From: Geoglobus acetivorans
GTDB taxonomy: Archaea > Halobacteriota > Archaeoglobi > Archaeoglobales > Archaeoglobaceae
Direction: 5' to 3'
DNA: 64,000 nucleotides
Assembly (NCBI RefSeq): GCF_000789255.1
Contig: NZ_CP009552.1
Span: 620,001 to 684,000 of the forward strand
A model generated the notes under the pieces. It was given only the letters and a program-made list of their open reading frames with translations. It did no database searches and was not told the origin of the DNA. Shown here in pieces: positions 2,315 to 18,508 of this stretch. Each line of letters begins with the position of its first letter. The first letter of the stretch is position 1. The translations under genes were made by a program, and so were the position numbers.

Positions 2315-3463
2315 ATGGATTTCACGCTGGATGAAGAGCACAAAATGCTCCAGCAGGCGGTGAGAGAATTCGCTGAAAAGGAAATAATGCCATACGGGAA
2401 AGAGTACGATGAGAAAAAGGAATATCCAATGAAAATTTACAGGAAAGCCGCAAAACTCGGTTACATCGGGGCAAGCATACCTGAGGAGTACAACGGCGCT
2501 GGAATGGACTGCCTGGCTGAGGCGATAATCAGCATGGAGTTCACGAGGGCAGACAGCAGCATCGGCTCTGCCATAGACCTCGCGGTTCTCGGTGTTCCAA
2601 TGCTCCTTCATTTTGGCTCGGAGGAGCAGAAGGAAAAATTCATGGCGAAGGTCCCCAAGGGTGAGGGTATCTCGGCAATAGCCATCACCGAGCCGGATTG
2701 TGGTACTGACGTGGCCGCAATGAGGACAAGGGCCGTTAAGGACGGCAGTGAATGGGTGCTGAATGGCACAAAGCAGTTCATAACCAACGGAAGTGAGGGT
2801 ATTTACACGGTTGTTCTCGCAAAAACCGCTCAGGTTGATCCACCCCACAGAGGCATCTCGGCCTTCCTTGTAGAGCAGGACAGAGAGGGATATTCTGCCA
2901 AAAAAATAGATAAAATGGGCCTGAACTGCCACGATACTGCCGAAGTTTCTCTCAGCAATGTGAGAGTGCCTGAAGAAAATCTCGTAGGCAGGGAAAACAA
3001 TGGTTTTTACCAGCTGATGGCATTTTTCAATGAAAGCAGGATCAAGATCGGCGCTCTGCACCTCGGCATGGCCATCGGGGCATACGAAAGAGCACTTGAG
3101 TATGCGAAGGAAAGGAAGAGCTTTGGAAAACCCCTGATAGAGCATCAGGCCATAGCCTTCAAGCTTGCCGACATGTATAAAGACATAGAGGCGGCGAAGC
3201 TTCTTGTCTTCAAGGCGGCATGGCTTGTCGATAACGGTAAGGCTGATCCGGCCTTAAGCTCTGCAGCAAAGCTGTTTGCGAGTGAGGTTGCAGTAAAGGT
3301 TACCTACGAGGCCGTGCAGATCTTTGGAGGATACGGGTTCAGCAAGGAGTATGATGTTGAGAGATATTACAGGGATGCGAGGGTTGGAACGATTTATGAG
3401 GGGACGAGTGAGGCTCAGAGGATAGTCATCTCAAGAAGGCTTGCCGGAAAGATAAGGGTATGA
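2315..3463 (+). CDS. Acyl-CoA dehydrogenase
   Basis: A 382-residue FAD-dependent acyl-CoA dehydrogenase of normal family length. Family signatures visible are AIAITEPDCGTDVAAMRT (FAD/substrate signature), QIFGGYGFSKEYDVERYYRD near the C-terminus, and YEGTSEAQRIVISR, whose Glu in EGTSE is the usual catalytic base position. It introduces the alpha-beta double bond into acyl-CoA and passes electrons to an electron-transfer flavoprotein, which is not encoded here. A GAGGTGATT site precedes the ATG. It lies between thiolase and 3-hydroxyacyl-CoA dehydrogenase, with 9-base gaps on both sides. It could be a butyryl-, glutaryl- or medium-chain enzyme. Confidence 0.93.
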   Translation: MDFTLDEEHKMLQQAVREFAEKEIMPYGKEYDEKKEYPMKIYRKAAKLGYIGASIPEEYNGAGMDCLAEAIISMEFTRADSSIGSAIDLAVLGVPMLLHFGSEEQKEKFMAKVPKGEGISAIAITEPDCGTDVAAMRTRAVKDGSEWVLNGTKQFITNGSEGIYTVVLAKTAQVDPPHRGISAFLVEQDREGYSAKKIDKMGLNCHDTAEVSLSNVRVPEENLVGRENNGFYQLMAFFNESRIKIGALHLGMAIGAYERALEYAKERKSFGKPLIEHQAIAFKLADMYKDIEAAKLLVFKAAWLVDNGKADPALSSAAKLFASEVAVKVTYEAVQIFGGYGFSKEYDVERYYRDARVGTIYEGTSEAQRIVISRRLAGKIRV

Positions 3464-3472
3464 GGTGATGGG

Positions 3473-4333
3473 ATGAACGTTGAAGATGTTAAAAGGGTTG
3501 GAGTACTCGGCGCTGGAACCATGGGTGGAGGAATAGCCCAGGTATGTGCGATGGCAGGTTATGAGGTGGTGCTGAGAGACATAGAAGACAGATTCCTCGA
3601 AAGGGGGCTTGCCAATATAAGAAAAAGTCTTGAGAAGTTTGCAGAAAAGGGCAGGCTGAACGAGGATGTTGAGACGATAATGGGCAGAATAAAGCCCACA
3701 ACGAAGCTTGAGGATCTCGCAGATGTGGATGTCGTGATTGAGGCAATAATTGAGAACATGGATTTGAAAAAGGAAACGTTCAGACAGCTCAGCGAGATCG
3801 TGAAGAGGGAGGATGCGATTTTCGCTTCGAATACCTCCACGCTCAGCATCACAGAAATGGCATCAGTTACGAGGAAGCCGGAGAACTTCGTGGGCATCCA
3901 CTTCATGAACCCCGTCCCGGTGATGAAGGGAGTTGAGATCGTCAGAGGGCTGTTAACGAGCGACGAAACCTTAGAGTTTGCGGTTGAGTTCACGAAGAAG
4001 CTTGGGAAAGAGCCAGTTGTCTGCAGGGACTCTCCGGGCTTCATCTCCAACAGAATCCTGATGCCCTGGATAAACGAGGGAATCTGGGTGCTTTACGAGG
4101 GTGTTGCGACGAAGGAGGAGATAGACAGGGGAATGAGACTCTTCACAAACGTTCCGATGGGGCCGTTAGAGCTTGCCGACCTGATTGGCTTAGACATCTG
4201 CCTTGCTGCAATCGAAACCCTGCACAGAGAGCTCGGAGACAAATACCGCCCCTGCCCCCTGCTCAAGCAGATGGTTCAGGCGGGATTGCTCGGAAGGAAG
4301 ACGGGAAGGGGCTTCTACGACTACAGCAAGTGA
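3473..4333 (+). CDS. 3-hydroxyacyl-CoA (3-hydroxybutyryl-CoA) dehydrogenase
   Basis: A 286-residue NAD-dependent 3-hydroxyacyl-CoA dehydrogenase. The Rossmann dinucleotide motif [11 protein letters not shown] is at residues 13-23. The catalytic His is in [19 protein letters not shown], and the C-terminal domain carries [18 protein letters not shown] and a closing [11 protein letters not shown]. It oxidises 3-hydroxyacyl-CoA to 3-ketoacyl-CoA. AGGTGATGGG before the ATG supports the start. It is the last gene of the operon and is followed by a T-rich stretch. It resembles the free-standing Hbd type, unlike the fused paralogue at 36119-38098. Confidence 0.93.
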
Positions 4334-7665: not shown

Positions 7666-8088
7666 ATGAAAAAACACCTACTCCCGATAGTCCTGCTACT
7701 CCTCATCCATATTGCAAGGGCTGACGTTATTTTCCCGCTCACATTCGTGTTCATCCCATACATACCCATCATCATTCTCCTCGAGGTGTTAGCATTTCTT
7801 GCTCTCAGGGAAAGGCTTGGACTGGAAATTCAGGCTGGCAGAGGCATTCTGGTCGTTGCAATAGCCAACATCATAAGTTCAGCTGCAGGACTGGTTGTTC
7901 CCGGTCCGTACAAATCTGCAATAGAAATCTGGTTCCTCTCCGCCTACGCCCTATCCACGCTGATTGAGGGAGTCATTTACAGAGTTGGAATGGGGAAGAG
8001 CGCAGTGAAAAGTGTTCTCCTCTCAGCAATTCTTAACGCTGTCTCGTACGCTGCTGTTCTTGTAGCAATAATAACGAAGATGCTCTGA
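7666..8088 (+). CDS. Small polytopic membrane protein
   Basis: A 140-residue protein that starts with a signal-like segment (MKKHLLPIVLLLLIHIARA), followed by three hydrophobic stretches: VFIPYIPIIILLEVLAFLAL, ILVVAIANIISSAAGLVVPG and the C-terminal VLLSAILNAVSYAAVLVAII. The start follows a TATA-like box at leaderless distance. I recognise no family. It stands alone, with convergent neighbours downstream and the accessory cassettes divergent upstream. Confidence 0.6.
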   Translation: MKKHLLPIVLLLLIHIARADVIFPLTFVFIPYIPIIILLEVLAFLALRERLGLEIQAGRGILVVAIANIISSAAGLVVPGPYKSAIEIWFLSAYALSTLIEGVIYRVGMGKSAVKSVLLSAILNAVSYAAVLVAIITKML

Positions 8089-8119
8089 AAGAGAAAATGC
8101 AGAACGGAACAGATAGATC

Positions 8120-8968
8120 TCATGCTATCAGATGTGACCCATCGCAGCTTCCGGCTTTGAACGGTATTCCCTCCCTGCAGAACGCATAGCTTATACCAAG
8201 CTCCTCACACTTTTCAGCAACTCCTGATAAAAGCTTCACCCTGAGGTCTCTTCCCAGATACCAGCTCCCGCCCAACCTCTCACCCTCCCTGAAGTACAGC
8301 CTCCTGTAGTGCTCTTTAAGTTCCGGAAATTCCTTTACAATCCGAGAATACGAGTCTCCCCGGAGCTTCAGGGTGGATGAGACAACGTGGTCCACAAAGC
8401 TGGCCCTCTCGAGAACCTCCTCAAAATTCTCGTCGTTGATCTTTGGCATTACCGGATCGAGTCTCAGAATTACAGAAATTCCTGCTTTCTTCAGCCTTTT
8501 CAGCGCTCTGATTCTTCTCTCCGGCTCAGGAGCGTTTGGCTCCATTTTCCCTGCAACATCCTCATCGAGTGTTGTTACCGTTATCGAAACTGCGGCCCTC
8601 ATGTTTTTCAGGATGTCAGCATCTCTCGCCACAATGTCGCTCTTGGTTATAACCAGCAACCTCAAGTTTTTCTCCGATATCTGCCTCAGCACGTTTCTCG
8701 TCAGCCCCATATCTCTCTCCATCGGCGGATACGGGTCGGAACTGTTCGACATGGAGATGAGCGCATTTTCAGGCAGATTCTTCAGTTCCCTTTCAAGCCT
8801 CGTCAGCAGGAGCTTCTTTGGTCGGGCGCTGAAAAAATTCGGAATGTATGTGGAATAGCAGTAAAGACACCGATGGTCACAGCCGGTGTAGGGGTTGAGG
8901 GAGTACTTCGCAGGACAGGTGCAGATTCTTGATTTCCAGGGGTCGAATGATGTGATCAAACGGCTCAT
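8120..8968 (-). CDS. Radical SAM protein, SPL-like family
   Basis: A 282-residue protein with the radical SAM cluster motif CxxxCxxC at Cys30, Cys34 and Cys37 (TGCDHRCLYCYSTYIP), followed by an NSSDPYPPMER stretch typical of the spore photoproduct lyase-like group, often annotated as DNA repair photolyase. The barrel continues through LRLDPVMPKINDENFEE. The reaction is unknown for this archaeal subgroup. True spore photoproduct lyase is not expected in an archaeon. Its ATG overlaps the stop of the triphosphatase gene by four bases (ATGA), so the two are translationally coupled. Confidence 0.85.
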   Translation of the reverse strand: MSRLITSFDPWKSRICTCPAKYSLNPYTGCDHRCLYCYSTYIPNFFSARPKKLLLTRLERELKNLPENALISMSNSSDPYPPMERDMGLTRNVLRQISEKNLRLLVITKSDIVARDADILKNMRAAVSITVTTLDEDVAGKMEPNAPEPERRIRALKRLKKAGISVILRLDPVMPKINDENFEEVLERASFVDHVVSSTLKLRGDSYSRIVKEFPELKEHYRRLYFREGERLGGSWYLGRDLRVKLLSGVAEKCEELGISYAFCREGIPFKAGSCDGSHLIA

Positions 8969-9489
8969 TGCCGGTACATCTCCCTGTTAAGCCAGGGTAT
9001 CAGGGCCATTGTTACTGCAATCTCGCTGAGCATGCTCCTGGTTATGGCATTCTTTGTCAAAAAGCCTATTGCACCCTGTTTTTTCCCGAGATTTTCAATC
9101 CCTGTAAGGACCTCCATGACATCCCCTACCTCCTTCCCGTTAAGCACTTCCCTCACAACCAGAGGTGGGTACTCAAAACCCGGCCCGAAACCTATGGTGT
9201 AATGTTCGCCATCAAACACGCATGCGACCTGAAAATCGATGTAGCCCGTGAGCGTGAACGGCAGCTCGAAGAGTCCCGCCTCAATTCCCACAGAGAAGTC
9301 CAGATCCTCACTGTACGCGTTCCTTGCCCTGTTCACAGCCCCCTCTATTGTCTCAGCACCGAATGGCTGATCGCTAACACCCGATATACCCTCCCTGGGA
9401 ACAACCTGGACATCGTGAAAGAATTTCTCAAAAGCCCTTTTGACACCTTCTATTTTGGCAGGATTCTTCGTTCCAACAGCAATTTTCAT
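8965..9489 (-). CDS. Inosine/xanthosine triphosphatase (YjjX-like)
   Basis: A 174-residue protein starting MKIAVGTKNPAKIEGVKRAF, the N-terminal signature of the YjjX/DUF84 family. Family members hydrolyse ITP and XTP and so remove non-canonical nucleotides. Further family features are the SDQPFGAETIEGAVNRARNA stretch (residues 43-62) and an acidic Gly-rich GIEAGLFELP loop. Length is normal. It overlaps the downstream radical SAM gene by four bases, which suggests a shared role in nucleotide or nucleic-acid quality control, though this is inference. Confidence 0.85.
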   Translation of the reverse strand: MKIAVGTKNPAKIEGVKRAFEKFFHDVQVVPREGISGVSDQPFGAETIEGAVNRARNAYSEDLDFSVGIEAGLFELPFTLTGYIDFQVACVFDGEHYTIGFGPGFEYPPLVVREVLNGKEVGDVMEVLTGIENLGKKQGAIGFLTKNAITRSMLSEIAVTMALIPWLNREMYRQ

Positions 9490-9562
9490 CCGGAAAACCG
9501 GGAATCAAACTCAAGATAAACTTTTCTCTCACCATCTTCACCACAAAAAAAGAGTTGCGTCC

Positions 9563-9925
9563 TCATAGCACTTTATTGAGCGTCTCAGTAAGCACGTGCA
9601 CCTCATCTTTCAGCTCGGCCAGAACTTTACTGCCAAGCTCCGTGATCCTGTAATACCTCCTGAATCTTCCCCCAACCTCAGCCTGGAAGTCTTCCACGAG
9701 CCCGTACTTCCTGAGGCTCTTCAGGAGGTCGTAAAGCGTTCCCTCACTCGGAACCAGCTTTCCGTCGCTGAGCGTTTCAAGATTCTTTCTTATTGCGTAG
9801 CCATGGAGGTCCCCCTCGTTTTCAAGGATTGACAGCACCAGAAAAGAGTAGAAACCTGATCGCAAATCCTTGCGAAGTTTTTTGACTGCGTTTTTCTCGT
9901 TTTGCCGGAACACGGGCGTTATCAC
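9563..9925 (-). CDS. PadR-family transcriptional regulator
   Basis: A 120-residue winged-helix protein. The PadR signature is clear: GFYSFLVLSILENEGDLHGYAIRK, then VPSEGTLYDLLKSLRKYGLVE as the recognition region, and a wing GGRFRRYYRITELGSKVL. PadR proteins are usually small repressors of stress, drug or phenolic-acid genes. The frame begins at a GTG at 9925, and a GTG at 9913 is an alternative placed after GAGGAGTG. It is adjacent to a YbjQ-like gene on the same strand (35 bases). Its targets are unknown. Confidence 0.85.
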   Translation of the reverse strand: MITPVFRQNEKNAVKKLRKDLRSGFYSFLVLSILENEGDLHGYAIRKNLETLSDGKLVPSEGTLYDLLKSLRKYGLVEDFQAEVGGRFRRYYRITELGSKVLAELKDEVHVLTETLNKVL

Positions 9926-9960
9926 TCCTCAGCAGCACTGGAACTTCATGCCGTAACCAT

Positions 9961-10293
9961 TCACTGCTCGGGTTCAGCAACAACTGCAGTGCCGTAGGCA
10001 TAGACTTCCGCAACGTTCGAGCGAACGTTTGAGGTTGCAAACCTGATGTTGACGACAGCGTTGGCTCCAAGCTCCTTTGCATGGAGAAACATCCGTTTCA
10101 GAGCTTCCTCTCTTGCCTCTGCCATCATCCGGGTGTACTCGTCTATCTCTCCACCCCTGATGTTTCTCAGGAGAGCCATTATGTCCCTCCCAATGTGCGT
10201 GGCCCTCACCACCCCGCCACGTGCTATTCCTTTTACCTCAACAATCCTATAACCAGGTATTGTTTCGGTTGTTACGGCCAGAACGTCACCCAT
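9961..10293 (-). CDS. YbjQ/UPF0145-family protein
   Basis: A 110-residue protein from the ATG at 10293, chosen because GGGGTGATGG precedes it and because the family begins at this point (MGDVLAVTTETIPGYRIVEV). The longer frame to 10410 adds 39 residues that do not fit the family. Conserved features include GIARGGVVRATHIGRDIMA and ELGANAVVNIRFATSNV. The family forms oligomers and is sometimes called a heavy-metal-binding domain, but its function is unsettled. It lies directly upstream of the PadR gene on the same strand. Confidence 0.85.
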   Translation of the reverse strand: MGDVLAVTTETIPGYRIVEVKGIARGGVVRATHIGRDIMALLRNIRGGEIDEYTRMMAEAREEALKRMFLHAKELGANAVVNIRFATSNVRSNVAEVYAYGTAVVAEPEQ

Positions 10294-10577
10294 ACCATCA
10301 CCCCATACATCGGACTCCGAGGTAAGTGTGTCAGGGTGCAATAAAAAAGTTTCGACGAACGCAGTAATGCACAGACATTCACCGTTCAGTACACTTCCAG
10401 TTCCAGGCACTGTTCCGGTCCATTATAATTATTTAGATTATAACCATACCATCAGTAATTTTTTTATTATTGAGATAAAGAGCTATATTCAGAATTTATT
10501 GCAGATAAACCAAACAGTGTTAAACTGATGAATATATAATTACTACAGAATAAAACAAATACAATATGAGGGTTATT
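10294..10577. other. Divergent intergenic region
   Basis: No gene is supported here. The right half (10430-10565) is very AT-rich and holds a TATA-like ATATATAATTA at about 10532-10542, roughly 40 bases before the winged-helix start at 10578. The left half, next to the YbjQ gene, has near-normal GC content and an open frame in phase with that gene, which I take as untranslated. Confidence 0.35.
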
Positions 10578-10844
10578 ATGAAAGTGCGCAGAAGCAGTTT
10601 CGAAATCATACACGACATTCTCTCTGCAATAAACAGCGGAACTACCAAAAAAACGCAGATAATGTATAAAGCCTGCATCGACTGGAGGAACTGCGAAAAA
10701 TACATTTCCCTTCTTATCGAAAACGGGATGATCCGGAGGAACAACGGGTCTTTTGAGATGACGGAGAGGGGAGAGGAGCTTTACACCCACCTTTCAAGGG
10801 TTATCGAACTGATCAGCATAAACTCAAAAAATTATAAATTTTAA
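10578..10844 (+). CDS. Winged-helix DNA-binding protein
   Basis: An 88-residue protein from the ATG at 10578, which has GAGGGT six bases upstream. An earlier in-frame ATG at 10566 lacks a site. The sequence KVRRSSFEIIHDILSAINSG, KKTQIMYKACIDWRNCEKYI, LLIENGMIRRNNGSFEMTERGEEL fits the archaeal winged-helix family often annotated as HTH_45 or ArnR1-like. It is the first gene before the TasA/SipW-like cluster and points the same way, but an AT-rich run and a separate promoter lie between. A regulator of that cluster is a reasonable inference. Confidence 0.75.
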   Translation: MKVRRSSFEIIHDILSAINSGTTKKTQIMYKACIDWRNCEKYISLLIENGMIRRNNGSFEMTERGEELYTHLSRVIELISINSKNYKF

Positions 10845-10994
10845 ATAAAAATTTTATTTTTATTGATTCCTAATCATCATGACAATTATTTATATGCTTG
10901 TTGCACAGAAGTGAAACATGTTACAGATACACATGTCAATAAATCTTGAACATTTATATCTCATCAAAAATCATTGGAGTATGAGGTGCAGAAA
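10845..10994 (+). promoter_or_regulatory. Terminator-like run and promoter before the TasA-like cluster
   Basis: The left end carries AAATAAAAATTTTATTTTTA, a T-rich self-complementary run suited to ending the winged-helix transcript. Further on, two ACATGT palindromes (10916-10921 and 10931-10936) sit 9 bases apart. A TATA-like CATTTATATCTC lies at about 10950-10961. GAGGTG at 10983-10988 is the ribosome binding site for the ATG at 10995. The paired ACATGT sites could be an operator. Confidence 0.45.
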
Positions 10995-11594
10995 ATGAGA
11001 TGGATAGTGGGTGTGTTGATGGTGGCCCTGGTAGGGCTGGTGATTGGAGCGGGAACGTTTGCGTACTTCAGTGATACGGAGACGAGCAGTGGGAACCAAA
11101 TTACGGCTGGGACTTTGGAACTCAAACTTGGAGATGGTGCAAATACATGGTACGACGATCCAAACATACCCAGTTACACTGTCACGAATGTCTATCCAGG
11201 CTGGAGTGATTGGCTTGACTTCTATGCCAAGAACTTTGGAAGCATTGATGGCGACCTATATATGAAAGTTACATATACCGAAAGCACTGGTGATAATACC
11301 GAGGCGGAGGGAAGCCCAGATGATGCCGTTTTGGACGATAACCTCTGTGTTGCAGTTACTTTGGACGGAACTTCCTTTGATCTGAGTACCTACGACACCA
11401 ATAGTGATGGTTGTGTTTCGCTCTCAGAGATTGCCAACCAGTACATCTTACTTGGAGACCTTACCGGAGGAAATTCTATGCACATAAAGATCGATGTGAA
11501 TATCCCGACAACAGTCGGAAACGAGATCCAGGGAGACACGGTGACTGTCAATGTCGAGTTCAAGCTAATGCAAGACGGAATTTTACCATCCTAA
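10995..11594 (+). CDS. TasA/camelysin-like secreted filament subunit 1
   Basis: A 199-residue protein from the ATG at 10995 (GAGGTG upstream). It has the SipW-substrate N-terminus: a membrane segment IVGVLMVALVGLVIGAGTFA, then YFSDTETSSGNQITAGTLEL, the hallmark of TasA, camelysin and archaeal bundling pilins. The mature part is beta-rich. An Asp-rich loop YDTNSDGCVSLSEI (about residues 129-142) looks like an EF-hand calcium loop. Family knowledge: a dedicated signal peptidase cleaves before the YFSDTE motif and the subunits polymerise. The signal peptidase is three genes downstream. Probably a main or minor filament subunit on the cell surface. Confidence 0.8.
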   Translation: MRWIVGVLMVALVGLVIGAGTFAYFSDTETSSGNQITAGTLELKLGDGANTWYDDPNIPSYTVTNVYPGWSDWLDFYAKNFGSIDGDLYMKVTYTESTGDNTEAEGSPDDAVLDDNLCVAVTLDGTSFDLSTYDTNSDGCVSLSEIANQYILLGDLTGGNSMHIKIDVNIPTTVGNEIQGDTVTVNVEFKLMQDGILPS

Positions 11595-11631
11595 ACAATT
11601 AGTCATTTAATTTTTCAATGGGTGACCAGCG

Positions 11632-12411
11632 ATGCGAAGCGTTGCAGCGGCTCTCATCCTCATCAGCCTTGTGCTCGCAGGAGCTGGCTACGGTACATGG
11701 GCAATCTATCAGGACACTGAGACGAGCAGTGGAAATTATGTTCAGGCTGGAACGTTGGACATATACCTGACAGACCATACAACCGATGCAAACCAGCAGT
11801 GGCTTGTTCTCAACTCGTATCCAAGAACTGATGAAGATAATCCGGGCCAGAGCAGTTGGATGGGGTCTGGACAGATAAAGGTTCACAACGACGGTAGTCT
11901 ACGGGGAGACCACATAGAGCTGGCTTTCAAGTTCAAATGTTACGAGGACGACGACGGCGATGTATTCGTCAGCCCGACGTATCCATATGACTTTACATAT
12001 GACTCATCAAAACACACCATCGGCCCAGAATCAGATACCAACCAAAGTGGTATAGGAGATTGGTTGAAAGAGATTAAACTCACAAAACTAAACTATGGGC
12101 TCTCCTCCAACAGAGAGACTACGTACAACTTGCTAAACGGATTGTGCATGGCAGACGGTGATTCAGAATGCACAATGAACGATTTGGCGTTGTCTGTTAT
12201 TAAACTGCCATCAGATTACACACCGCTTACGGACGGCAATGAGTACGGTCTCATCCAGATGGATTTCGAGATTATTGACACAGGAACGCCCCAGAACGAC
12301 TGGCAGGGCGATGTCTGCGAACTGATAGTGCAGGTTGCATTGGCCCAGGATCCAAGCCAGACGGTCCTTTCGCCGGGAGGGGTTGAGGTAATACTTCCGA
12401 GCAGCAATTGA
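11632..12411 (+). CDS. TasA/camelysin-like secreted filament subunit 2
   Basis: A 259-residue protein with the same N-terminal plan as the gene before it: signal segment MRSVAAALILISLVLAGAGY, then IYQDTETSSGNYVQAGTLDI. The mature part is acidic and beta-rich, with an Asp-rich stretch CYEDDDGDVFVSPTYP and a C-terminus VALAQDPSQTVLSPGGVEVI. The ATG follows GGTGACCAGCG. It is 37 bases after subunit 1 and probably co-transcribed. The larger size suggests a different filament role, such as a tip, base or minor subunit. That assignment is inference. Confidence 0.8.
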   Translation: MRSVAAALILISLVLAGAGYGTWAIYQDTETSSGNYVQAGTLDIYLTDHTTDANQQWLVLNSYPRTDEDNPGQSSWMGSGQIKVHNDGSLRGDHIELAFKFKCYEDDDGDVFVSPTYPYDFTYDSSKHTIGPESDTNQSGIGDWLKEIKLTKLNYGLSSNRETTYNLLNGLCMADGDSECTMNDLALSVIKLPSDYTPLTDGNEYGLIQMDFEIIDTGTPQNDWQGDVCELIVQVALAQDPSQTVLSPGGVEVILPSSN

Positions 12412-12428
12412 TCACAGCAGAGATCAGC

Positions 12429-13019
12429 ATGAAGTCCATCAAGAAATTTTCAATTTTTTTTGTGATCTTGCTGGCTATCTTGCTGCAAATTCTCAGCCAG
12501 ACTTACGCCCTGAACCCCCATTACTTCGCACCATCTGCCACAGGCTATCCTGATCTCTGCTTCGTTGTGGATGGCAACACAGCTCAGCAAGCCCCACCGT
12601 TTCTGAGAGCATCAAACTTCAGGCCGGGAGATTACGCCGAGGGTTTTCTAACGCTGAAAAACTGTGGAACTGGTAAGTCAAGCTTTCTCAGCATCTCGCT
12701 GAGCTACTACGGCTTCACCGACCCAAACTCGGATAGCAGCCCGGAGGGTTTCCTTTCTGCCATTGAGATCACAGATATGTCCTTGGGTGAAAGCGGAAGT
12801 CCTGTGTGGAGAAATCTGAAAAACTACATCGAGGACGTGAACAGTAACGGCAGAATAGACCTGCACGACCTCTCACTGTTCCCTGTAAACATCCAGTACA
12901 CAATCAATCCGGACGATGGTAGAGAATTCTACATAAAGGTAAGGTTTATACCGGATGCCGGCAACGAGTATCAGGGAGACAGCATAAACCTGAGCTTCAC
13001 GTTCACAATCGGGGGTTGA
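12429..13019 (+). CDS. Secreted protein of the TasA-like cluster with dockerin-like loop
   Basis: A 196-residue protein from the ATG at 12429. An in-frame TTG at 12408 overlaps the preceding stop but adds only seven residues before the signal. The signal peptide is conventional (KKFSIFFVILLAILLQILSQ, cleavage near TYA). It lacks the YFSDTE motif. The mature part resembles the other subunits in its beta-rich segments (GYAEGFLTLKN-like, and a final EYQGDSINLSFTFTIGG close to the EIQGDTVTVNVEFKL end of subunit 1). It contains DVNSNGRIDLHDLSLF, a dockerin/EF-hand-like calcium loop. Probably an accessory or assembly component. Confidence 0.7.
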   Translation: MKSIKKFSIFFVILLAILLQILSQTYALNPHYFAPSATGYPDLCFVVDGNTAQQAPPFLRASNFRPGDYAEGFLTLKNCGTGKSSFLSISLSYYGFTDPNSDSSPEGFLSAIEITDMSLGESGSPVWRNLKNYIEDVNSNGRIDLHDLSLFPVNIQYTINPDDGREFYIKVRFIPDAGNEYQGDSINLSFTFTIGG

Positions 13020-13021
13020 AG

Positions 13022-13549
13022 ATGAAGACCGGCATCCTCATGCTTGCGATCTCGGGAATGGCTCTCGTTTTCCTCGCATACACAGGCTTCACGTCAAGTT
13101 ATTTTTATGACACTGAAAAAGTTACGATTACACTGCAGGTCTATGCTCCTCAATCATCACACGTTGAGGTCGAAAAGCTGAGCGACTGCCCCTTTAACCA
13201 CTGCAGTGAATATTTCTGCGTGAGGCTGAAAAATACAGGAGATGCAAGCGTCACCCTTGTGGAAATTGAAGGTGAGAGCCTTCAAAAGCTGATTGCGCTC
13301 AACGGATCGGGTGGTGAGATTTACGACAGCAGTAATGAGAAACACAGCCTGAGCATCACAGTTCCGCCCTTTTTCAGTGATGAGGACTACATTTACCTTG
13401 CCCTCAAGTTTGGTGAACGCTGCTCAGAGAAGCATGGCATGCACGGAAAGGATAAAGAGCATGAGGATAAGCATGATGAAAAGCACACGGTCAGGCTGAA
13501 GTTTTCGGACGGTTCAGAGCTGAAAGTTGAATTCGAGAGAGGTGATTGA
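13022..13549 (+). CDS. Membrane-anchored or SipW-processed protein with His-rich tail
   Basis: A 175-residue protein from the ATG at 13022, placed after GGGGGTTGAAG and overlapping nothing. The N-terminus TGILMLAISGMALVFLAYTG, then SSYFYDTEKVTITLQVY, repeats the signal-plus-YFxDTE plan of the TasA-like genes, so it may be processed by the next gene's peptidase. It has two cysteine pairs (LSDCPFNHCSEYFCVRL and GERCSEKH). A charged run, EKHGMHGKDKEHEDKHDEKH, near residues 138-157 could bind metal. The product is probably a cell-surface component. No exact family recognised. Confidence 0.65.
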   Translation: MKTGILMLAISGMALVFLAYTGFTSSYFYDTEKVTITLQVYAPQSSHVEVEKLSDCPFNHCSEYFCVRLKNTGDASVTLVEIEGESLQKLIALNGSGGEIYDSSNEKHSLSITVPPFFSDEDYIYLALKFGERCSEKHGMHGKDKEHEDKHDEKHTVRLKFSDGSELKVEFERGD

Positions 13550-14392
13550 TTGTCAAGGGTGATTGCAGTTGTATCCACCACATTATCCGCGGTTTTTCTT
13601 CTCGCCTTTCTGACTTTCAAACCTGCAGCACTTATAGTGCTGAGCGGGAGCATGGTTCCAGTGATATATCCCGGAGACATAGTCCTGGTTTTTGAAAAAA
13701 ACCCTGAAGAGCTGTCCGTAGGGGATATAATCACATTCAGAAGCCCTGATGGGAGGGAGAACGTTCTCATAACCCACAGGATAATAAACATAACGAAAGA
13801 AGACGATGGAAGCCTTGTTTTCAGAACGAAGGGGGATGCTGTGGAGGAGCCAGACCCCTTCACCGTTCACGAAGACGATATTGTCGGCAGCCCCGGAATT
13901 CTCATTCCGATGCTCGGATACCTGCACGAGAAAAGGGAGATCACGTACTTTGGACTCATACTGATACCGTCTGCCATCATAATGGCACAGGAACTCAGGA
14001 TACTCGCGAACCCCACGGTAAGCGAGAGAGAAGAGGTGAGGAAAAAAAGACTCTCAGAGAGGAGGAGGGGTGTTTTCAGATGGCACAGGCTTTTGTTTGT
14101 CACCTCAGCATACACAGCCCTTTTCTCAGCACTGTTCTGGATATCTGCCAACACCAACCTGCCGGTGCAGAAGGCAGAGTTTGTCAACGGAAGCTGGTTT
14201 GTTGCGGAGAATTTTGACCCATACAGCATGATTTATATAATTCCTCCATTCTATATCGAAAGGCTCGGATTGAATCCACTCATCGTGCTTGGCATCTATA
14301 CAGCATTCTGCACGCTGATTTCGATTCCACTGTGTATCGAGAGGAGGAGAAATGCATGGAAAAGAAGAAGATATGGCTTGCTGTTTCGCTGA
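13550..14392 (+). CDS. SipW-like signal peptidase I (S26B)
   Basis: A 280-residue protein starting at a TTG with AGGTGA seven bases upstream. The membrane segment is at residues 5-23. The catalytic motif LSGSMVPVIYPGD gives Ser34. VLITHRI gives His76 in the place of the bacterial Lys, as in SipW and archaeal/eukaryotic Sec11. The third block TKGDAVEEPDP gives Asp96 and Asp102. A long C-terminal extension with two further membrane segments (LLFVTSAYTALFSALFWISA and LIVLGIYTAFCTLISIPLCI) is unusual for a housekeeping peptidase. Position after four secreted genes argues for a dedicated processing enzyme. Confidence 0.88.
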   Translation: MSRVIAVVSTTLSAVFLLAFLTFKPAALIVLSGSMVPVIYPGDIVLVFEKNPEELSVGDIITFRSPDGRENVLITHRIINITKEDDGSLVFRTKGDAVEEPDPFTVHEDDIVGSPGILIPMLGYLHEKREITYFGLILIPSAIIMAQELRILANPTVSEREEVRKKRLSERRRGVFRWHRLLFVTSAYTALFSALFWISANTNLPVQKAEFVNGSWFVAENFDPYSMIYIIPPFYIERLGLNPLIVLGIYTAFCTLISIPLCIERRRNAWKRRRYGLLFR

Positions 14393-15324
14393 TTTTTTTG
14401 CTCGTAACTCTGGCAGCCGGATATTATGCCTACGGGAACCTCAGGCCAGAGGTGAAGCAGATAAAAACCACGGAAAAGGCTGGAGTGGTCACAGTGGGAT
14501 TCACCCACTCCGCAATCGTTATGAGCGATAACCCGCTGTGGGAAAGAGGAAGCAGGCTTGAGAACAGGAGCGTGTACTTCTACTCCGTAAGCCCTGTCCT
14601 CGATATCTGGCTCACGATCTCGTATCCGGGAAATTTCACCGCTGACTACGTCATCCGGCTGGAATACCTCTCCAAAAACTCAAACCAGGTTCTCTGGGAG
14701 AAGACAGAGACCGTCAGCTCAGGCAACACATCGTCTTCAAACTGGGCCACCGTTCATACATCGCTTAACATCCCTGACCTCAGAAAGAAGATTTCAGAAA
14801 TAGAGAGCTATCTGGACTTCAGAGGGGGCAGCAAGGAGATCCGGCTCACTGCTGAGGTTGAAATATCCGGCGATTACGGCAAGTACAGTTTGTCAGCACC
14901 GCTAACTATCTCTCCCGGGGACAGCTACTATTCTGTCTCCTCACAGAAATCCGAAAAACAGATAGAGAAAAAGGTCACAAAGACCGTCTCTGTGCCGCCC
15001 ACACAGAAAGAGATCGCTGCCAGCGCCGGACTTGTGGTCGCTCCACTTCTTGCAATGATTGCCTCGATATACATGTACGCAACCTCGGCACCCACACCCG
15101 AAAAGCTCCACAGAAAGTACGGGAAGTGGATAAGCAACGCCAAGCTTCCGGAAGGCGACTTTACTGAAATTCAGGTTGAGAGTCTTCAGGACCTTGTTGA
15201 TATTGCCATAGATACTGGAGAGAGAGTTCTGCATGATAGGGAGACCGGCGTGTACTTCATCGTAAAGCAGGGAATCATCTACAAATACAGACTTGCTTAC
15301 AGAAAGAAGGGTAAAAAACAGTGA
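14356..15324 (+). CDS. DUF5305-like membrane protein of the TasA/SipW cluster
   Basis: A 322-residue protein from the ATG at 14356, which has GAGGAGGAG upstream and overlaps the peptidase gene by 37 bases. It has an N-terminal membrane segment (IWLAVSLIFLLVTLAAGYYA), an external beta-rich domain of about 200 residues (SVYFYSVSPVLDIWLTISYP and onward), a second membrane segment near AGLVVAPLLAMIASIYMY, and a soluble C-terminal tail. This plan and the pairing with a signal peptidase match archaeal DUF5305 proteins as I recall them. It is the last gene of the cluster. A role as filament anchor or assembly platform is inferred. Confidence 0.7.
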   Translation: MEKKKIWLAVSLIFLLVTLAAGYYAYGNLRPEVKQIKTTEKAGVVTVGFTHSAIVMSDNPLWERGSRLENRSVYFYSVSPVLDIWLTISYPGNFTADYVIRLEYLSKNSNQVLWEKTETVSSGNTSSSNWATVHTSLNIPDLRKKISEIESYLDFRGGSKEIRLTAEVEISGDYGKYSLSAPLTISPGDSYYSVSSQKSEKQIEKKVTKTVSVPPTQKEIAASAGLVVAPLLAMIASIYMYATSAPTPEKLHRKYGKWISNAKLPEGDFTEIQVESLQDLVDIAIDTGERVLHDRETGVYFIVKQGIIYKYRLAYRKKGKKQ

Positions 15325-16086
15325 TCAATCAACGCCGAGCAGCGACCTCACGAGATTCTCCCTGGACCACTCCCCTCCGCTAAACCTTTCAAACATCATT
15401 GCCTTCTCGCCTGCCTTACCGAAAACCTCTGCGTAGATCTCCATATATGACTTTCCTCTTTCATAAAGCTCCAAACACCTCTGTCTCAACCACTTGAGGT
15501 AATTCAGGTACTCCTCGACCTCTTCTCTGCGGTATATTCCATGCCCTCCAAACGCAATCTCGAAATCATGATTGAGCAACCTCTCCAGGGATTCGATGAT
15601 CTGAACATATCTCTCATACCTCAGAGCCACGGATACCCTCTTTGCTGCAATCAGATCCCCGATGAAGGCATAACCATCCAGAATGTAAACAACATGATCC
15701 CGGGAATGTCCAGGAGTGTAAACGAACTCTATTTCAGGTTCCCTGAACCTCTCGGCGGGAATCTGTTCAACCTCTCCCCATACCAGCTTCCGGTAGTCAG
15801 GTATCTCAAATCCTGATGAAAGAATTTCAGCCGTGGCCTTTCCTGAATAGATCACATCAAACAGTCCCGCATTTCCAGAGTGGTCTTCGTGGTGGTGGGT
15901 GAGATAAACCGAATCACAGGCTCTCTTCCCGAAATATTCTCTTATTTCGTCCCTCACATTTGAACATCCTGAATCGAAAACGAGGTCTGAATAAGCGTAG
16001 AATGACGTTGTGAACACCACTCTGCCTCCAACCTCTGCCCCAACTTCAATCCGCTCCACATCCCCAATCCTTTCGGTTGCAAGCAT
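15325..16086 (-). CDS. Metallo-beta-lactamase-fold hydrolase
   Basis: A 253-residue MBL-fold protein. The metal-binding motif HHHEDHSGN lies in VYLTHHHEDHSGNAGLFDVI, a second His is in VYTPGHSRDHVVYI, an Asp in YAFIGDLIAAKR, and a late His in IAFGGHGIY. This set supports a di-metal hydrolase such as a glyoxalase-II-like or thioesterase-like enzyme. The substrate is unknown. I chose the ATG at 16086, which directly follows the polB stop (TGATATG), over an in-frame TTG at 16107. The gene is therefore coupled to polB. Confidence 0.8.
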   Translation of the reverse strand: MLATERIGDVERIEVGAEVGGRVVFTTSFYAYSDLVFDSGCSNVRDEIREYFGKRACDSVYLTHHHEDHSGNAGLFDVIYSGKATAEILSSGFEIPDYRKLVWGEVEQIPAERFREPEIEFVYTPGHSRDHVVYILDGYAFIGDLIAAKRVSVALRYERYVQIIESLERLLNHDFEIAFGGHGIYRREEVEEYLNYLKWLRQRCLELYERGKSYMEIYAEVFGKAGEKAMMFERFSGGEWSRENLVRSLLGVD

Positions 16087-16087
16087 A

Positions 16088-18433
16088 TCAGCCAAAGAAT
16101 GAGTCAAGGGTTTTTTGTGTATTTCCCTTTATGGTCAGCTCGTTGTACCCGAACCTCTCAAGTATCCTCAAAACACTCGGGATAATCTGATTGTTTATGT
16201 AGTACTCCCTGTCAATCCTCTTCTTCTCGTTGCCGAGTTTGGTTTTCAGCTCAACAAGCTCTCCATCAAAGCTTTCAATCAGTTCGAGTGGATAGGCTCT
16301 GTCTCCGATGTTGCCGGAACCCTCAACAACCACGAATCCCACCTTTGTGCCTACAGGGTAATGATACCCAAGCTCCATTCCTCTCTTGGCAGCCTTAACG
16401 TGTGCCTGAACACTCTCATATCTGGAGGGTTTTCTTGTCAGCCCCTTGTAAATGATGTACTTTTCAAGGGGGTACTCACCGGACTTTATTCTGCCTATCA
16501 CCTCTCTAACATATTTGAGAGCCTTTTCCGGATTCATTTCTTTCAGGATTATCTCTATAACACTCCTCTGGGTTTCCTTCGCAAGCTCACACCAGTCTCC
16601 TCTCCTGACTTCAAGACCCTTGACAACAAGTCTTCCGTCCGATGTAAGTCCGGCGTACCTCTTTTTTTCAACGAAAAATATTGTTCGGTAGATTTCATCG
16701 ACCTCAATAGTGATTGGTATTTCTTTCGAGATGCGCTTTATCAGCTCCTCCACTTCCTTGCTGTCTGCAAGTCCGTCGTTCTTCTTTACAAAAAGCGAGT
16801 CCGTATCGCCATAAAGCACCTCAAACCCCATGCTTCTGGCAATCTCTGCAGATTTCTTTATGAAATGTCTCCCCCATGCTGTTGTCGCCTCAGCACATGC
16901 TCTGCAGTACCACCTTGCCCCGCTCCATCCTGTGTATCCGTAAAATGAGTTCGTGAGAATTTTGAGCGTCTGCTGCTTTATGTCGAGAAGCCTGTAGTCG
17001 ATGCTGTCCCTGTCTGTTTCGCCCATCATGGCTTTCACTTCACGCCTCCGTCTGATCAGGTCCTGAAGAATTCTCTTGAAAAAGCCATCTGGTTGTTTTC
17101 TGAACCTGTGGTTAACCTCGGGCGCAACAAAACAGTCATCACATGCTCCCGAAACGTATGTATCTGGAGAGATGTTGTAGGCAATCATTATGGAGGGGTA
17201 CATCGAAGCGAAATCCAGACAGTAAACGTTCTCATGCAGACCTCTGACCGGTTCGAGGACAAATGCTCCCTCGTAACCCTCATCCATTTCCCTGGGATTT
17301 GGTGCGAGTTCGTTCAGTCTGTACGCTTCACTCAGAAGCAACCAGTCAACCTGCTTTCCCCTGCCGATCCTTGTGATGTCGTCCACAGGGAGTCTGACCA
17401 TCCTGGAAAGCTCGTAGTGCATCGGAAGGAGTTCTTCGGCTATAAAATACGTGTTGAGTATGTCCTGTCTCGAGTATCTGAAAACGCTCTCCTTATCTCC
17501 AGAGGTCCACTTCCGGTAGATGTCCTTCGCCTCTATGTCCGCAATTTCCACCTTCCTGCCCAGAAATTCGGCCACATTTTCAAGCTTTTTGACCTTGACG
17601 TCCAGTCTCATCGCCAGGTCATAGAGGTCAACATTCAGCCGTCCAGTGATTTTCGGCCTACCACCCCTGAAAGTCAGCTCACTACCGTCTCTGCCAACTG
17701 AAAGCTTAACGGAGAGCTTTTCGGCTCTCTTTTTTAAATACGGCCAGTCAAAACCATCCTGGTTGTAACCAACGATGATGTCGGGATCCAGCTCCCTTAT
17801 CACCTTTACAAATCTGGCTATTATCTCCCTCTCCTCACCGTGTATGATTTCCTCATAATCACCCATCTTGACTCCGATGATTATTATCGGGTCCTTCTCT
17901 GCATCAGCCATCCCGAACTCGGTCAGCATCTCACAGTCAAATGCGAGAACTCTCAAACTGGGAAACGTCTTCTTTCTCACTCTCTCGACGGTCTCTGCAT
18001 CAACAACCCTCAGTCCCTTTTCCTGTCTGACATCACCCTCAACCCTCACACCATCCATGCATGCAAGATCCCTGTCAATCAGATACCTGTATGCAAAGGG
18101 TATGTCCGCCTCCCTCACATCCCCGTAGTCTCTGAAAACCTCCCTCAGCTTTGGGACATCCTGGGGGTGGCGTGCATAAACCACATAAACTTCAGTTTCC
18201 TTGCCAAAAATCTTTTTCCTGGCTTTTTCCACCTTCAGAGGGGATACGACCTTTCCCTTGGATTCAACCTTTACATCCATCGGATCGAAGTCTTGGTAAG
18301 GAATGACGTAAAAGTAGGGGGTGAAATTTCTGTCATACACTACGAAAACTCCTTCCTCGTCCCTGCACCACAGCCTTACCACTGCTTTTCCTACCTCGGT
18401 AACATAATCTGCATCAATGAGCCAGCCTTCCAT
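16088..18433 (-). CDS. polB: Family-B replicative DNA polymerase
   Basis: A 781-residue family-B DNA polymerase, normal for archaeal PolB. The 3'-5' exonuclease motifs are present: Exo I LAFDCEMLTEFG, Exo II VGYNQDGFDWPYL and Exo III YSRQDILNTY. Polymerase motif A is DFASMYPSIMIAYNISP, motif B KILTNSFYGYTGW and motif C YGDTDSLFV. The C-terminus QKTLDSFFG is a PCNA-interacting (PIP) box. The ATG lies about 25 bases after a TATA-like TTAAATAG, so the mRNA is probably leaderless. An MBL hydrolase gene follows immediately. Confidence 0.97.
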   Translation of the reverse strand: MEGWLIDADYVTEVGKAVVRLWCRDEEGVFVVYDRNFTPYFYVIPYQDFDPMDVKVESKGKVVSPLKVEKARKKIFGKETEVYVVYARHPQDVPKLREVFRDYGDVREADIPFAYRYLIDRDLACMDGVRVEGDVRQEKGLRVVDAETVERVRKKTFPSLRVLAFDCEMLTEFGMADAEKDPIIIIGVKMGDYEEIIHGEEREIIARFVKVIRELDPDIIVGYNQDGFDWPYLKKRAEKLSVKLSVGRDGSELTFRGGRPKITGRLNVDLYDLAMRLDVKVKKLENVAEFLGRKVEIADIEAKDIYRKWTSGDKESVFRYSRQDILNTYFIAEELLPMHYELSRMVRLPVDDITRIGRGKQVDWLLLSEAYRLNELAPNPREMDEGYEGAFVLEPVRGLHENVYCLDFASMYPSIMIAYNISPDTYVSGACDDCFVAPEVNHRFRKQPDGFFKRILQDLIRRRREVKAMMGETDRDSIDYRLLDIKQQTLKILTNSFYGYTGWSGARWYCRACAEATTAWGRHFIKKSAEIARSMGFEVLYGDTDSLFVKKNDGLADSKEVEELIKRISKEIPITIEVDEIYRTIFFVEKKRYAGLTSDGRLVVKGLEVRRGDWCELAKETQRSVIEIILKEMNPEKALKYVREVIGRIKSGEYPLEKYIIYKGLTRKPSRYESVQAHVKAAKRGMELGYHYPVGTKVGFVVVEGSGNIGDRAYPLELIESFDGELVELKTKLGNEKKRIDREYYINNQIIPSVLRILERFGYNELTIKGNTQKTLDSFFG

Positions 18434-18488
18434 TCAGGGAATTGTTGGCGGGATACTATTTAACCCTTTCACGACTCTGATGCAATTC

Positions 18489-18508
18489 TGTATTACATAT
18501 GTAATACA
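18489..18508. promoter_or_regulatory. Perfect 20-base palindrome before the CobT-like gene
   Basis: The sequence TGTATTACATATGTAATACA is identical to its own reverse complement. It ends 15 bases before the CobT-like ATG and lies 55 bases upstream of the polB start. The TATA box expected for the CobT gene would fall inside it, so a bound dimer would block that promoter. An operator role is inferred from symmetry and position. Confidence 0.55.

Follow-up and report, generated by a model that had tools for sequence, protein, structure and literature searches.

Organization of the locus

The window analyzed here is a 64,000-nucleotide stretch of the hot-vent archaeon Geoglobus acetivorans (contig NZ_CP009552.1, positions 620,001 to 684,000; complete genome of 1,860,815 bases). 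It carries a module of about 5 kb that encodes exported proteins resembling the fibre protein TasA, together with a signal peptidase and a protein of the DUF5305 family. Sequence matches and a predicted fold lend good support to its reading as an archaeal fibre cluster of the TasA type, whose new element is the pair of peptidase and DUF5305 protein, not the variable four subunits. The seven genes all lie on the + strand, and from subunit 1 onward they are closely spaced or overlap slightly. The features are as follows (wHTH, winged helix-turn-helix; ER, endoplasmic reticulum).

10325-15340, strand not stated: accessory module, delimited by comparison with the flanks in a sister species
10578-10844, +: putative wHTH regulator, HTH_45/Sso10a family (HTH_45 88.7 bits, Sso10a_fam 83.2 bits)
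10995-11594, +: subunit 1, TasA/camelysin-like, probable major pilin (TIGR04088 and Peptidase_M73)
11064-11096, +: YFSDTETSSGN segment, candidate N-terminal donor strand (alignment with the TasA fibre N-terminus)
11394-11429, +: EF-hand/dockerin-like loop DTNSDGCVSLSE of subunit 1, possible calcium site (pattern count)
11632-12411, +: subunit 2, TasA/camelysin-like, probable second pilin (TIGR04088 and Peptidase_M73)
12429-13019, +: subunit 3, TasA-like, possible minor subunit (jackhmmer from subunit 1)
12834-12869, +: calcium-type loop DVNSNGRIDLHD of subunit 3 (pattern match)
13022-13549, +: subunit 4, short SipW-type exported protein, possible initiator or cap (SSYFYDTEK after the signal)
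13550-14392, +: Ser-His-Asp (ER-type) signal peptidase with four membrane helices (TIGR02228, 92.2 bits)
14090-14340, +: peptidase extension, helix 3, short ectodomain and helix 4 (hydropathy helix starts, alignment)
14356-15324, +: DUF5305 protein (PF17231, 141.6 bits)

Comparison with the sister species (genome G025) showed that the module is present or absent as a unit. The flanks in that species, 84-89% identical to window positions 8002-10324 and 15341-18497, are separated by about 180 bp that contain nothing of the module. In a further species of the same genus, the flanks are 72-75% identical and the module is likewise missing. Since both congeners keep the flanks and lack the module, the cluster is an optional, accessory cassette that is gained or lost as a unit.

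A first-pass annotation, made from the letters of this DNA, had placed the reading frames where they lie, and its subunit motifs, peptidase and DUF5305 protein were confirmed by family scores. It also began the cluster at 10578, the start of a wHTH/Sso10a-like gene that it did not describe and whose open frame begins at 10566. A ribosome-binding-type stretch, GAGGTG, precedes the ATG of subunit 1. Scans for sigma-70 promoters and terminators gave results at chance level, such models not being meaningful for an archaeon. In the relative that carries locus L045, transposase-like reading frames (3205-3919) separate the wHTH gene from subunit 1; this genome is probably that of Ferroglobus placidus, and the one with L048 that of Archaeoglobus fulgidus.

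Exported subunits

Subunits 1 and 2 were recognized by two family models at curated cutoffs, TIGR04088 for the SipW-type signal peptide (cutoff 19 bits) and PF12389, Peptidase_M73, for camelysin (cutoff 22.5 bits). Subunit 1 reached 46.1 bits (3.5e-12) and 36.5 bits (5.7e-9), and subunit 2 reached 23.7 bits (3.8e-5) and 28.3 bits (1.9e-6), respectively. Behind the signal peptide, subunit 1 has the motif YFSDTETSSGN and subunit 2 the motif YQDTETSSGN. These matches, with the TasA-like predicted fold of subunit 1 described below, uphold the TasA/SipW-like reading of the first-pass annotation.

The other two exported proteins are less typical. Subunit 3 has an ordinary signal peptide, does not contain the DTE motif, and had been taken for a conventional secreted protein. 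Its Peptidase_M73 score of 21.4 bits falls 1.1 bits under the cutoff, and jackhmmer started from subunit 1 joined it to the TasA family with an E value of 4e-45, a match that makes it a TasA-like subunit and not an unrelated secreted protein. Subunit 4, whose gene directly precedes the long peptidase, has SSYFYDTEK after its signal and a His-rich tail; it matched no family in the curated scan, the TasA and camelysin models included. A small SipW-type protein occupies the same position in L044, L046 and L048.

A profile of 25 subunit sequences, compared with the sequences in PDB, matched the TasA fibre (8aur, 1.4e-9), the TasA crystal structure (5of1, 2.1e-9) and the archaeal fibre protein AbpX (9sj2, 4e-5). 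TasA and AbpX were found by the family profile only: searching PDB with subunit 1 or subunit 2 as a single sequence gave nothing useful, and subunit 1 alone did not retrieve AbpX. Subunit 1, the only subunit modelled, was predicted by AlphaFold with a mean pLDDT of 84, and Foldseek placed 8aur first among PDB folds (2.2e-5, probability 1.00), followed by the Sulfolobus thread 7pnb (9.5e-4). The model thus resembles the TasA jelly-roll, as had been expected for this cluster.

Several details agree with a subunit that polymerizes. First, the YFSDTETSSGN segment begins just past the predicted cleavage site A|YF and aligns, in the profile match, to the mature N-terminus of the TasA fibre chain. 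In the monomer model of subunit 1, this post-cleavage segment lies outside regular structure and has low confidence; it fits a candidate donor strand awaiting placement, low confidence by itself being no proof. Second, P68 of a PG motif is the one invariant column among the 25 subunit sequences and aligns with the PG of TasA, whose region, the proline box, is the most conserved portion of the protomer interface (PMC10151520). Third, the pattern of an EF-hand/dockerin-like loop was matched by 9 of 39 TasA-like subunits, compared to 2 of 1784 background frames, and calcium binding at this loop of subunit 1 is possible from its sequence pattern.

The subunits differ greatly in their divergence. 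Between window 10995-12411 and L045 3992-5404, subunit 1 is 75% and subunit 2 76% identical, compared to 73% for DNA polymerase B of the two genomes, while identity is 43% for subunit 3, 44% for the wHTH protein, 45% for the peptidase, 40% for the DUF5305 protein and 26% for subunit 4. The fibre proteins are therefore the slow part of the module and the machinery the fast part; the slow change of subunits 1 and 2 could reflect strong constraint or recombination among pilin genes. Given their fast divergence, subunits 3 and 4 could be independent surface proteins, which favours an alternative in which the exported proteins do not polymerize at all but form a mixed surface coat or are secreted in the manner of camelysin, with the peptidase and DUF5305 pair as a special branch of export and processing. 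This alternative is quite improbable, as subunits 1 and 2 are conserved like DNA polymerase B and retain both the proline position and the candidate donor strand of a known fibre protein.

Signal peptidase and cleavage site

The peptidase scored 92.2 bits against TIGR02228 (cutoff 51.85), the class of archaeal signal peptidase I, and did not reach the SipW equivalog NF046067 (76.8 bits against a cutoff of 190). Its residues S34, H76, D96 and D102 are invariant in 22 relatives, and hydropathy places the starts of its helices near residues 4, 134, 181 and 245. Passing a general archaeal model would suit an enzyme that is in effect the general signal peptidase of the cell and has pilin genes as incidental neighbours. 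We regard this as scarcely credible, since four further TIGR02228 genes occur in the genome, two of which do not lie beside DUF5305, and the whole module is missing from the sister species. With five such genes in all, three adjoining DUF5305, the peptidase is not the sole signal peptidase of the genome.

The two-helix C-terminal extension noticed at first pass is indeed there, but it is the rule rather than an unusual trait. By hydropathy only, nearly all DUF5305-linked peptidases consist of helix 1, the catalytic part, helix 2, a cytoplasmic linker, helix 3, an ectodomain and helix 4. What is unusual here is the brevity of the ectodomain, which spans about 100 residues in the peptidases of clusters with DUF1102 subunits and is reduced to a short loop in the alignment of the window peptidase. 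Comparisons of the extension as a fused pilin, or as a relative of DUF5305, gave no support. At the third DUF5305 cluster of the source genome, near 1.814 Mb, a frameshift (L017 7706-8723) splits the catalytic part from the two-helix extension; it could be genuine or a sequencing error.

The cleavage site follows a common rule. Position P2′ is Phe, Tyr or Trp in all 27 TasA-like subunits that align at the site, and among DUF1102 proteins 157 of 181 have an aromatic residue at the equivalent position, as do 51 of 52 within Archaeoglobi; subunit 3 does not have the aromatic residue. An aromatic P2′ impedes bacterial LepB, and Bacillus TasA, with Phe at P2′, is processed by the dedicated ER-type peptidase SipW (PMC10269814). 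The shared residue links different subunit families, all located beside the same kind of peptidase. DUF1102 was also considered as a member of the TasA superfamily. The hhalign probability was 92% with signal peptides and 9% for the mature parts, so the match rested on the signal; a shuffle control gave one anomalous high score and was not relied on.

DUF5305 and its pairing with the peptidase

The DUF5305 protein lies far above the PF17231 gathering score of 29. Its AlphaFold model, of high confidence (mean pLDDT 94.7), predicts a beta ectodomain between membrane helices 1 and 2, with three strands that are 23-28 residues long, and an alpha/beta part in the cytoplasm. A fold search against PDB gave no match below 1e-3 and returned generic beta-sandwiches only. 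A comparison of DUF5305 as a TasA-like subunit gave no support.

Of 59 Archaeoglobi genomes, 20 carry DUF5305, as do 106 of the 394 genomes sampled across the phylum Halobacteriota; a narrower collection search gave 16 named loci, including Methanosarcina, Methanococcoides, Methanophagales (ANME-1) and haloarchaea. Among 83 DUF5305 loci, a signal peptidase (S26) was found in the stretch at 79, within 2.5 kb at 75, and adjacent on the same strand at 55. By our own estimate from five peptidase genes in 1.86 Mb, about 2% of random genes would have an S26 gene within 2.5 kb. The distance matrices of peptidase and DUF5305 also correlate (r 0.72; none of 2000 permutations as high, maximum 0.19). DUF5305, which had been viewed as the anchor of this cluster, is not specific to it and pairs generally with four-helix signal peptidases throughout Halobacteriota. 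Its place beside such a peptidase at about nine of ten loci suggests that this recurrent pair marks an undescribed, widespread site at which archaeal surface fibres are assembled. A literature search found no paper naming DUF5305 or DUF1102; reports on AbpA and AbpX were outside that search, so an earlier description of the neighbourhood is possible.

The fibre could also be TasA-like while DUF5305 is no part of its assembly but a surface sensor, its ectodomain registering pilin build-up or misfolding and its cytoplasmic domain signalling to the wHTH protein or the peptidase. In a 12-sequence alignment, several of the best conserved DUF5305 positions (L278, V292, D295, Y310) are cytoplasmic, and homologues of the small wHTH gene lie close to most Archaeoglobi DUF5305 loci. 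Haloarchaeal loci, however, mostly do not have this wHTH gene and carry one of another wHTH family next to the pair, and Pfam recognizes no signalling domain in DUF5305. We regard a sensor as rather unlikely.

Cassette types among relatives

Three types of cassette were distinguished by their subunits. Type A, with TasA-like subunits, comprises the window, L044-L046, L048, L155, L157, L159, L160 and L166. Type B, with DUF1102 subunits, comprises L016 and L017 of the source genome and most haloarchaeal loci; examples such as L016 include a DUF11-like protein. Type C, at L049 and L061, has AbpX-like subunits, which match AbpX directly (3.7e-11), and a peptidase with a multi-helix part fused at its N-terminus. 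The constant element over all three types is the peptidase and DUF5305 pair.

All five Archaeoglobi clusters of the TasA type have TasA-like subunits, a small pilin and the long peptidase with DUF5305. A four-subunit composition, proposed earlier as the mark of the cluster, does not define it: subunit 3 was recognized only in the window and its nearest relative, and several relatives add a second, minimal peptidase. The latter, of about 150-160 residues, occurs in the type A loci L044, L046, L048, L157, L159 and L160, and by neighbourhood comparison is absent from the clusters of the window and the L045 genome.

Some relatives carry additional proteins. At L048 (8009-8941) and L046 (8232-9161), the short peptidase is directly preceded by a TasA-like subunit that is extended at its C-terminus by a domain of about 100 residues. 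A large subtilisin-like secreted protease (L046 1826-5338, genome G004) adjoins the TasA-type cluster, and a related protein lies beside that of L048. In the source genome near 1.256 Mb, L016 3695-5263 encodes a fusion in which DUF1102 is combined with a von Willebrand A domain and, at the C-terminus, a NEW3-like domain; it is a likely adhesin of that DUF1102-type cluster. In the type C peptidases (L049 8497-9630, L061 8459-9586), the N-terminal multi-helix domain is about 230 residues long and replaces the C-terminal extension. The peptidase gene is followed, on the opposite strand, by one for a large secreted protein of about 850 residues.

Proposed assembly pathway

We consider it probable that the module builds a biofilm-type surface fibre of the TasA or archaeal bundling-pilus kind, with the peptidase and DUF5305 as a dedicated cleavage-and-assembly site for donor-strand pili. 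Judging from their sequences, subunits 1, 2 and 4 would be exported by Sec through SipW-type signal peptides with an aromatic P2′ at the site, and the local four-helix Ser-His-Asp peptidase would be their dedicated processing enzyme. For the remaining steps, including filament formation and the role of DUF5305, we infer the following. Once released by cleavage, the N-terminal strand (YFSDTETSSGN...) would enter the jelly roll of the following subunit; in this way subunits 1 and 2 would polymerize through donor-strand exchange, perhaps stabilized by calcium at the EF-hand-like loop. Subunits 3 and 4 may be minor parts, i.e., initiator, cap or adaptor. The outer loop of the peptidase and DUF5305 would form a joint assembly site at the membrane, where the long beta ectodomain of DUF5305 may hold or guide the base of the growing fibre and its conserved cytoplasmic domain may report or control assembly. 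The wHTH protein would regulate the operon. The same pair would serve DUF1102 and AbpX-like subunits in Archaeoglobi, methanogens, ANME-1 and haloarchaea.

Several points weigh against this proposal. The Foldseek TM-score of subunit 1 to TasA is only 0.45, and the filament itself is a prediction, though a likely one, from genes and models. Neither by sequence nor by fold does DUF5305 match a pilus chaperone, an usher or TapA. The distance correlation of peptidase and DUF5305 also contains shared species history. TIGR04088 SipW-type proteins also occur in genomes without DUF5305, e.g., Haloferax volcanii, so DUF5305 is not required for every SipW-type protein. Finally, sequence comparison does not establish a relation between DUF1102 and TasA.

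A broader proposal is tentative, and we hold it to be possible but less than even: that the four-helix ER-type peptidase and DUF5305 form a general archaeal terminal assembly site, which would capture the subunit at cleavage and pass it to the fibre base. It would be a functional counterpart of chaperone-usher systems or TapA and serve at least three subunit families.

Comparison with known fibre systems

Compared to tapA-sipW-tasA of B. subtilis (8aur, 5of1), the module shares the SipW-type signal, an aromatic residue at P2′ (Phe in B. subtilis), the adjoining ER-type peptidase, the jelly-roll and the interface proline. It differs in having two TasA-like main subunits and two further exported proteins, as well as DUF5305, the EF-hand-like loop and two extra peptidase helices. 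The subunits did not reach the B. subtilis TasA equivalog NF046066 (20 bits against a cutoff of 450) and are not classed as TasA itself.

Among archaea, AbpA bundling pili, credited to Wang et al. (2022), are reportedly TasA-related fibres. AbpX (9sj2, 9rhp) is likewise an archaeal TasA-related fibre protein, but in profile comparison TasA is a better match to the window subunits than AbpX is.

The sipW-tasA/capP/calY system of B. cereus has two camelysin-type subunits in heterofilaments, a helper protein and SipW; the part of the report available mentions neither DUF5305 nor a four-helix peptidase, and CapP was compared by description only (PMC13082335). The Sulfolobus thread Saci_0406 (7pnb), the second-best fold, is a donor-strand filament exported with a type I signal peptide. 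It shares 17% sequence identity, and the available portion of its description places the gene in surroundings without a definite chaperone or usher and mentions no dedicated peptidase or DUF5305 (PMC9715654). By analogy, the calcium-type loop of the module may recall the Pyrodictium cannula protein CanA, an archaeal jelly-roll subunit that polymerizes with divalent ions (PMC12326000); the subunit profile did not match CanA in the PDB sequence search.

With these results, the archaeal range of TasA-type clusters extends to Archaeoglobi, Methanosarcina and ANME-1. Furthermore, DUF1102 and DUF5305, two families without known function, are tied to surface-fibre export through the common cleavage-site rule. 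For the start and membrane holding of archaeal donor-strand fibres, such as bundling pili and threads, the peptidase and DUF5305 pair offers a concrete candidate that can be deleted.

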